Source: Spirulina subsalsa FACHB-351 (lineage in GTDB: Bacteria > Cyanobacteriota > Cyanobacteriia > Cyanobacteriales > Spirulinaceae). From it: a stretch of DNA of 41,243 nt. This document shows, piece by piece, positions 1-25,304 of the stretch. The notes under the pieces were generated by a model. It was not told the DNA's origin. It made no database searches and worked only from the letters and a program-made list of their open reading frames with translations. The translations under genes were made by a program, and so were the position numbers. Within the stretch, counting starts at the first letter, position 1; each line of letters starts with the position of its first letter. The stretch covers positions 1-41,243 of the forward strand of contig NZ_JAIHOM010000040.1 in the NCBI RefSeq assembly GCF_026130165.1, in the 5' to 3' direction.

Positions 1-372
1 AGGGGGTGGGGAAAAGGAGGGAATCTCGAACCTTGGACTGGGGAGGTTCAAGGGGGGAGGAGTCCAACTGGGTAGACTGGGGGAGGGTTCCGGTTGGGGA
101 GTAGGTGGAAGGTCAGGGGGGGAGGGGGTTTCCGCTTCGGGAATGGGGGGAATATCTACACTACGGGAGGGTAACTGGGTAATCTTAATCAGGTCTTCGT
201 CGTTAATTTTAGCTTGAGTTTGGGGGGAGTCTTCCTGAAGGGGGAGGAATAAAATCCCACCATGTAGACCCAAGGAAATGAGCAACATGGGTCGCCACAG
301 AAAACGTAACCAGGGGGGGGTGGTGAGTTTAGAGGAGGAGGCAGGAATATCTGTGGCAGCGTTCTCAAACAT
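1..372 (-). CDS. TonB-like energy transducer, N-terminal part (cut by window edge)
   Basis: The frame opens at an ATG at 372 and runs off the left edge, showing 124 residues. After a ~28-residue cytoplasmic segment there is one membrane span (about residues 29-44) containing SLGLH. The Ser and His lie four residues apart, as in the Ser/His pair of the TonB transmembrane helix. From about residue 65 the chain is strongly proline-rich (PSPPDLPPTPQPEPSPS), the usual periplasm-crossing rod. The C-terminal TonB domain would lie outside the window, so the call rests on the membrane helix and the Pro-rich rod only. Known role of the family: coupling of ExbB/ExbD proton flow to outer-membrane transporters. 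No exbB/exbD is visible here. The gene diverges from cobH across 147 bp. A generic Pro-rich membrane protein is the alternative. Confidence 0.6.
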   Translation of the reverse strand, partial: MFENAATDIPASSSKLTTPPWLRFLWRPMLLISLGLHGGILFLPLQEDSPQTQAKINDEDLIKITQLPSRSVDIPPIPEAETPSPPDLPPTPQPEPSPSLPSWTPPPLNLPSPRFEIPSFSPPP

Positions 373-24153: not shown

Positions 24154-24207
24154 TTTACATCAAAATTCAACGGGACTGGCCGGATTTGAACCGGCGACCT
24201 AGCGCTT

Positions 24208-25115
24208 CAGATTTGTGTAAGTTTCCCCACTCTCTGGACTATTCCTTCACCCGCAACTTACCCGTTCCGGGGGTAGCCGTTATGCTGTAGGAGGTGTTTA
24301 TTTTATAGAGCATACTAGATGGCACATAGGGAGCCAACTGGCTTAAAAAGGCCTGACCGCCTTTTGTCCCTATTCGCAAACGATAACATCCTGTCCGCTT
24401 ATTTTGAGAACTTAATCCCCACTGAACCCCCCAATTTTCCAGAAAATACTTGACAATTGTTTCATTCTCTGATTTAGGTAAATTCGTATTGAGATAAACC
24501 TCTAAAGCGTGGATTTTACCCTGCCGTTTCTTAAAGGTCTTACTCCCACAATCGAGAAACCAAATCGCCACCCCTTGGGGGGTTAACTCCTCCAAAAACT
24601 GGGGAGTGATAACTTTTCCCCCAGAACCCCGATATAACTTTTGCATCAGAATCCGAGTCAGGGGAATTAACGGCGGTTGGAGTCTCAGGTAGGGAACGCC
24701 TTGGGAATTCACGCTAGGACAACAGGGAACTGATTGTCCTGTAATCCGTTCTAACCAGTCTTGTTTAAAGCGCAAATAGTCTAATTCGCGCTGGTCATAG
24801 GCCGCCACATAGAAATTATGGCCATTCCGTTGTGCGCAGCCTAGCAACATTCCGGCCAGAACCCCTCGTTGTTCTTTTTTCGTGAGGGTTGGTGTTTTCC
24901 CCATGCTCTGGGGATGAGACATAAAGTCCATCAATCGACTCTCTACAACCAGTCTCTGCACCTTCCACTAGGTAACGGTTTAAACCTGAGTCTAGTGGCT
25001 TGGCTCAAGATTACCCTATGCAGAGGTTCGGGTATCCCCAACGGCCTCGCACTTAGGCTTCCTTGAATTTGACTACATTCATTCATGAAGTTACCCTCAT
25101 GATGCCCGACTGTTC
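24208..25115 (-). ncRNA. Group I intron (tRNA type) in tRNA-Arg(CCU), ~908 nt, with ORF in P8
   Basis: Conserved core elements can be read in order on the minus strand. P is AATTCAAGGAAGCCTAAG (about 25049-25070). Q is GGGTAATCTTGAGCCAAGCC (about 24998-25020). P6 is CCACTAG/CTAGTGG (24998-24992 with 24971-24965). R is GGTGCAGAGACTGG (about 24950-24963). S is ATAGTCCAGAGAG (24229-24242), whose AGUC pairs with GACU of R to form P7. The Q and R strings are those of cyanobacterial tRNA-Leu(UAA) introns (group IC3) as I remember them. The last intron base is G and the base before the intron is U, as required. I could not draw a convincing P1 with the canonical U-G pair: the best I find is CCUC with GAGG (25095-25098). 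Confidence 0.85.
24239..24931 (-). CDS. Intron-encoded LAGLIDADG-family protein, both catalytic acids replaced by Cys
   Basis: From the ATG at 24931 the protein has 230 residues; ATG 24922 and an upstream GTG at 24961 (inside the R element) are alternatives. Two LAGLIDADG motifs are recognisable: VLAGMLLGC (first, Cys32) and VAIWFLDCGS (second, Cys128). They correspond to LAGLLLGD and LAIWFMDDGS of the PF03161-type homing endonucleases. FKQDWLERITG and RIGTKGGQAFLSQLAPYV also fit that group. In active enzymes the last acidic residue of each motif binds the metal at the active site; here both are Cys (TGC and TGT codons). The protein may be an inactive endonuclease, a maturase for the intron, or an enzyme with altered metal use. 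Its stop codon TAG is part of the S element of the intron. Confidence 0.82.
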   Translation of the reverse strand: MDFMSHPQSMGKTPTLTKKEQRGVLAGMLLGCAQRNGHNFYVAAYDQRELDYLRFKQDWLERITGQSVPCCPSVNSQGVPYLRLQPPLIPLTRILMQKLYRGSGGKVITPQFLEELTPQGVAIWFLDCGSKTFKKRQGKIHALEVYLNTNLPKSENETIVKYFLENWGVQWGLSSQNKRTGCYRLRIGTKGGQAFLSQLAPYVPSSMLYKINTSYSITATPGTGKLRVKE

Positions 25116-25304
25116 AGGAGGCGCTTGCTCTATCCAACTGAGCCACAGCCCCAAATTGATCAAGGCGATCGCACTTTGTCCCGCTTCAGGAACTCGATTG
25201 ACCACCAAGCCAGACTGATTCTACCAAATCCCCCGGAAATCCTGCAAACCGATCTCAGAGAATTGATGTTCCACTTGTTTATTCATAATCACACTTCCCA
25301 CTGA

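Follow-up and report, generated by a model that had tools for sequence, protein, structure and literature searches.

The window analysed here is a 41,243-nucleotide stretch of DNA from the cyanobacterium Spirulina subsalsa FACHB-351, and it carries on its minus strand a tRNA-Arg(CCU) gene that is divided by a group I intron. The 5′ exon (25116..25152), identified by its sequence and by the exon pattern of homologues, ends in the anticodon loop with U36, and the 3′ exon (24171..24207), identified by its sequence, begins with A37, which places the splice site after U36. The intron between these two halves is 908 nt long (24208..25115) and ends with a terminal G; its boundaries are set by the exon halves. 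It matches the Rfam group I intron model RF00028 at 24215-25128 of the minus strand (E 1.3e-5), with a score of 30.8 bits that lies below the gathering score of 50, we assume because of the inserted open reading frame (ORF). At gathering scores Rfam gives no match in the window, and ARAGORN finds no tRNA there. Judged by the RF00028 match and by 40 ORF-bearing introns, the window intron has the P3–P8 core, the P7 helix and the terminal G of the group I class. The same genome contains one further group I intron match, which is stronger (67 bits; G000:C64:27865-28080) and where ARAGORN reports no tRNA. At locus L146, no tRNA was found.

The intron ORF occupies 24239..24931 of the minus strand without interruption of its frame. 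It encodes 230 amino acids from the ATG at 24931, or 240 if translation starts at the GTG at 24961, upstream of this ATG. The M-D-[YF] start of the window ORF is shared by most homologues. Seven members (L002, L005, L018, L019, L020, L026 and L094) have Ile-Asp in place of Met-Asp, encoded by ATA where the DNA was seen, and in most of these seven a Shine-Dalgarno (SD)-like sequence lies upstream. The protein matches the Pfam family LAGLIDADG_2 (PF03161) with an E value of 1.3e-22 and 81 bits, above the curated cut-off of 25. The NCBIfam search with the protein, the plasmid search and the scan of genome contigs with the single protein as query each gave no match, and among the titles and abstract openings listed by searches of open-licence PMC, none concerned this ORF family.

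Structure of the intron RNA

The ORF is interwoven with the intron core. In the consensus fold of 40 ORF-bearing introns, the P3 strands GTAGTC (25071..25076) and GGCTAC (24273..24278, inside the ORF) on the minus strand are 100% paired, with double changes at 2 pairs. P4 is also 100% paired, and P8 is 99% paired (91% in its inner part). The P7 strands GACT (24951..24954) and AGTC (24237..24240), again on the minus strand, pair in 160/160 cells of the 40 introns, and the 3′ strand overlaps the TAG stop codon of the ORF. Between P7 and P3 lies a P7.1 hairpin, the loop of which contains the ORF. Its 5′ strand is GTTGTAGAGA (24940..24949, minus) and its 3′ strand is CTACAGC (24284..24290, minus), which falls within the C-terminal codons of the ORF. 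P7.1 is 95% paired and shows double changes at four of its seven pairs, although the 3′ strand is coding. The idea that P7.1 occurs only together with an ORF was rejected, as most of 36 ORF-less introns, inspected by eye, have P7.1 with a short loop. The core helices are about equally paired in the ORF-bearing introns and in 25 ORF-less ones, and therefore no RNA defect has been found that a maturase would have to mend.

The region of the P7.1 3′ strand (24284-24298 and its equivalents in relatives) reads ACCTC[CT]T in 25 of the 40 introns, a stretch that we take to resemble the anti-SD of 16S rRNA. An SD-like core is located in the facing stretch, near the P7.1 5′ strand, in 19/40, and 13/40 have both elements; translation and intron folding may therefore compete. 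Two other tRNA-Arg introns, of 670 and 678 nt, carry on the opposite strand an ORF of 153-155 amino acids that appears HNH-like by eye (L116:1589-2050 and L131:1588-2055).

Related introns without a reading frame

Among 388 genomes of the order searched with exact patterns, 168 have an uninterrupted tRNA-Arg gene, and in 201 the 5′ exon runs into an intron-type G. In all 30 loci fetched from these 201, the 3′ exon is found 220-859 nt further on. The P4 marker of the window's intron type occurs in 124 of 335 genomes, 39 with the ORF and about 85 without an ORF match. Thirty-six of these 85 introns, hand-picked for spread over families rather than sampled at random, are 204-330 nt long, which is too short for the ORF.

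On a tree of the intron core, built without L122 and L125, ORF-bearing and ORF-less introns interleave with 6 changes between the two states; the starred branches force at least 4, and several branches are long. A single ORF-bearing lineage with one ORF-less offshoot had been considered, based on a tree in which 24 of 25 ORF-less introns belong to another P4 type. It was rejected because ORF-less introns of the same P4 type are common and interleaved. It follows that the intron type as such does not need the protein. If the protein is a maturase, the dependence of its intron would be local or partial.

Catalytic positions and fold of the protein

LAGLIDADG homing endonucleases that are active carry an acid at the end of each motif. 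In the window protein, motif 1 reads VLAGMLLG-C-AQ and motif 2 reads VAIWFLD-C-GS, and both acids are absent. The two catalytic columns, placed by the family alignment, are occupied by Cys42 (240-residue numbering; codon TGC at 24836..24838, minus strand) and Cys138 (codon TGT at 24548..24550, minus strand), as the preliminary description had reported for an intact frame. An AlphaFold2 model of the protein (pLDDT 84.7, pTM 0.80) contains two LAGLIDADG helices and saddle β-sheets. Its best fold match is I-SceI (Z 19.8 over 188 residues, 19% identity); weaker matches include the WhiA proteins (Z 10.9-12.2), the bI3 maturase (2ab5; Z 11.3) and I-AniI (1p8k; Z 10.7).

A search of PDB by sequence yields weak matches only. 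In one of these (E 0.28), the second Cys aligns to the second Asp of the I-SceI motif WFMDDG. The first Cys corresponds to I-SceI residue 44 by the offset of the fold-aligned range (model 24..223 on I-SceI 26..225). Asp44 and Asp145 are, as we take it, the catalytic acids of I-SceI, an assignment for which a literature search returned no paper, and by alignment and model both Cys residues would thus sit at their positions. A shifted acid was considered and rejected: the window protein has neither Asp nor Glu in the vicinity of motif 1, and D137, the residue before the second Cys, is also present in relatives with intact motifs. A conserved Cys pair, whether as a disulfide, a Zn site or another Cys metal site, was likewise rejected, given that the sister species (L014) has Arg/Cys at the two positions in a protein 0.90 identical to the window protein over aligned columns.

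Residues at both motifs across the family

The family was assembled from searches of cyanobacterial genomes and, with identical aligned sequences merged, comprises 40 distinct proteins. All 40 are encoded in a tRNA-Arg intron, and the 5′ exon pattern is identical in 40/40. An order-wide search gives matches in 52 of 388 genomes, of which 41 belong to the tRNA-Arg intron family (assigned by reading the list) and 11 are more distant.

The motif-1 column contains 13 residue types (D 9, Q 8, K 3, V 3, E 3, C 2, R 2, W 2, H 2, N 2, A 2, T 1 and G 1), and the motif-2 column contains nine (R 18, K 9, C 4, D 4, and one each of N, Q, H, S and A). Both acids are found in only two homologues (L005 and L054), one acid in 12, and neither in 26. 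In the window's own family, 10 of 13 genomes carry the ORF and none of these ten carriers has an acid at either column; in the other three genomes, which lack the ORF, the tRNA gene is uninterrupted. The preliminary description had named an unusual active site as one alternative, but Cys occurs at motif 1 in 2/40 and at motif 2 in 4/40, and the sister species has Arg at motif 1. Cys is thus not conserved, and the pair is one draw from columns that became free. By the same alignment, the double loss in the window protein is one case of a family-wide pattern.

Outside the family, the acids are mostly retained. The alignment holds 26 further rows: a 29-residue fragment of the family itself (L067, with D at motif 1) and 25 distant relatives. 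Among those distant relatives that align at the respective column, 19/22 have D at motif 1 and 25/25 at motif 2. The three exceptions at motif 1 (E, K and K) belong together in another tRNA-intron clade, hosted by tRNA-Asn(GUU). These LAGLIDADG relatives in a tRNA-Asn(GUU) group I intron (L027, L028, L108, L111 and L112) come from another cyanobacterial family and keep DD at motif 2.

The motif-1 column has an entropy of 3.35 bits (median 1.07), rank 2 of 199, and its rate ranks 5 of 201, beside a directly preceding LLG that is invariant in 40/40. The motif-2 column ranks 27 of 199 in entropy and 38 of 201 in rate, and W134, D137 and G139 around it are invariant in 40/40. Lys or Arg accounts for 27 of the 36 non-acidic residues at motif 2, a count from related and not independent sequences, and 6 basic/non-basic changes fall on the tree. 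The Lys/Arg codons at this column are at least two base changes away from Asp codons. In this basic protein, 23 columns are richer in Lys/Arg, so that the motif-2 column ranks 24th of 201.

In trees built without the two catalytic columns, the 26 acid-less proteins form one side of a branch, with support of 97/87 (bootstrap/SH-aLRT) under a mixture model and 70 under LG+F+G4, and this clade covers several families. Under parsimony, the LG+F+G4 tree with four outgroup rows requires 3 switches between acidic and non-acidic residues at motif 1 and 4 such switches at motif 2. The protein tree has a distant outgroup and long branches for several family members; three long-branch outgroup rows, which had fallen inside the family, were left out of later trees.

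Selection on the reading frame

The selection tests cover the ORF up to about ten terminal codons, which overlap the intron core. Between the window and its sister species there are 38 synonymous differences at 130 sites and 24 nonsynonymous differences at 452 (Fisher P 1.8e-12), with dN/dS of 0.15 (NG86) or 0.18 (YN00). In 28 Q/R pairs, dN/dS is 0.075-0.352 (NG86), with YN00 values of up to 0.53 for one close pair, and a W/K pair gives 0.16. Fisher tests on six acid-less pairs indicate purifying selection, with P from 1.2e-8 to 5.8e-23.

Of the 40 homologues, 36 have neither a frameshift nor an early stop, 2 are frameshifted, and two more (L002 and L005) end a few codons early. Two lineages (L026/L060 and L029/L030/L061) have their frameshift in one and the same tract of 9-10 A, within the SFKKK codons, and slippage there could restore the frame. 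Homologues with Asp at the same columns, together with decay in this lineage, had been named in advance as evidence against a retained role. Such homologues exist, two of the 40 having both acids, but the decay is contradicted by purifying selection and the lack of a stop. The earlier proposal that the ORF is kept for another role after the loss of both acids is therefore supported. The window protein has been kept by selection while, judging by the role of the acids in this active site, it should be incapable of cutting.

Function of the protein

These observations argue both against simple decay and against a conserved Cys site; the ability to cleave DNA has probably been lost while another function is kept. 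At a probability of about 0.5, this function is that of a group I maturase or RNA chaperone that helps its own intron to fold and splice. A maturase is the first choice because the protein is intron-encoded, the tRNA gene that it would target is interrupted in carriers, and degenerate LAGLIDADG maturases are known, among them mitochondrial ones. Degenerate or bifunctional LAGLIDADG proteins are numerous among maturases (PMC3073962, excerpt), and one monofunctional maturase regained nuclease activity by a single substitution (PMC3943268, excerpt). Several findings count against this reading: the fold of the window protein is less similar to the bI3 maturase and I-AniI than to I-SceI, many introns of this type lack the ORF and interleave with those that have it, their core is about equally paired, 2/40 homologues are frameshifted, and the motif-2 column reaches no more than rank 24 of 201 in Lys/Arg.

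The other explanations differ in what the retained protein does, if anything. WhiA is a regulator with a LAGLIDADG fold, and its similarity to the window protein (Z as given above) would fit a nuclease-dead regulator that binds the tRNA gene, the intron DNA or its own mRNA and controls expression rather than splicing. The facing SD-like and ACCTC[CT]T elements point the same way, as translation and RNA folding could compete there. I-TevI is also cited as an autorepressor (PMC1995217, excerpt). However, the natural DNA target, the tRNA gene, is interrupted by the intron at the ORF's own locus in 40/40, and no binding site has been identified, which makes a regulator unlikely. Ordinary decay, in which the acids were lost after fixation in a homing cycle and the ORF is simply still present, accords with the interleaving of ORF-less and ORF-bearing introns and with two lineages frameshifted at one A-run. 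The current model is one of degeneration after fixation (PMC1995217, excerpt), and loss of catalytic residues has been counted as degeneration (PMC13190283, excerpt). The low dN/dS of the acid-less pairs and the Fisher tests on six of them speak against it, as do the 36 homologues without frameshift or early stop in a family whose acid-less clade covers several families, and a catalytic column that varies beside invariant neighbours. On the selection data, decay is largely refuted and distinctly improbable.

A protein that is still a homing nuclease could act through a Cys-bound metal or through the invariant D137, the first Asp of DDG, which is Asp in 40/40. The column aligned to I-SceI Lys122 is K/R in 35/40 and that aligned to Lys223 in 37/40, both residues presumably having a catalytic role in I-SceI. 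Against this, motif 1 of the sister species already has Arg instead of Cys, the residues W, V, G, A, K and R seen in this column are not expected as metal ligands, and the window protein has no acid close to motif 1. Since distant relatives whose motifs are intact have this Asp before the catalytic column as well, D137 is probably structural. An active nuclease is thus hardly to be expected.

The maturase or chaperone reading can be cast as a sequence of steps. The ancestor would have been a LAGLIDADG homing endonuclease whose activity carried the group I intron of tRNA-Arg(CCU) from one cyanobacterium to another. Both metal-binding acids have been lost in the clade that holds all ten carriers of the window's family, and with these acids gone the protein should no longer cut DNA. 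It may have been retained since it binds the RNA of the intron or of the precursor tRNA and aids folding and splicing as an RNA-only maturase, with the motif-2 Lys/Arg possibly contacting the nucleic-acid backbone at the former metal site. The preference for Lys/Arg at motif 2, which is not expected from single base changes off Asp, hints at a basic side chain replacing the metal. A more far-reaching version, which we hold only tentatively, is that the whole clade has turned from DNA cutting to RNA work: Lys/Arg took the place of the motif-2 acid on several occasions, protein charge thereby replaces Mg2+ and holds the backbone uncut, and the freed motif-1 position drifts. The clade would then parallel in bacteria what the maturases are in mitochondria, and proteins with both acids, with one and with none would represent all the steps among its living relatives.

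Comparison with known systems and significance

The monomeric homing endonucleases I-SceI and I-WcaI are the best fold matches and share with the window protein two motifs in one chain. They differ in that the window protein has both catalytic Asp replaced and resides in an intron of a bacterial tRNA gene. The bI3 maturase of yeast mitochondria is also a LAGLIDADG fold within a group I intron, and has been described as a splicing factor that binds RNA and was recruited from a role in DNA binding (PMC2813881, excerpt). It is mitochondrial and its RNA binding has been shown, whereas RNA binding by the window protein is proposed here, and bI3 gives no sequence match to the window protein in the PDB search. 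I-AniI, both endonuclease and maturase, is similar in fold but still has nuclease activity; its two activities are separable by mutation (PMC3943268, excerpt). A LAGLIDADG protein of a Thermotoga neapolitana 23S intron likewise comes from a bacterial group I intron and has maturase-like activity (PMC3984707, excerpt), but its host gene encodes rRNA. I-Ssp6803I, from the Synechocystis tRNA-fMet intron, is a cyanobacterial tRNA intron endonuclease (PMC1995217, excerpt). In contrast to the window protein, it belongs to the PD-(D/E)XK family and is an active nuclease.

A LAGLIDADG match in a cyanobacterial tRNA intron should accordingly not be taken as an active endonuclease. To our knowledge, the switch from endonuclease to splicing factor has so far been argued from a handful of proteins, most of them mitochondrial. 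The orthologous family described here, at a single insertion site, contains proteins with both acids, with one and with none; some of its members come from named isolates (Laspinema, Oscillatoria sp. PCC 10802), and the ORF-less introns of the same type serve as natural controls. With all steps extant and such controls at hand, an endonuclease-to-maturase switch becomes testable in bacteria.
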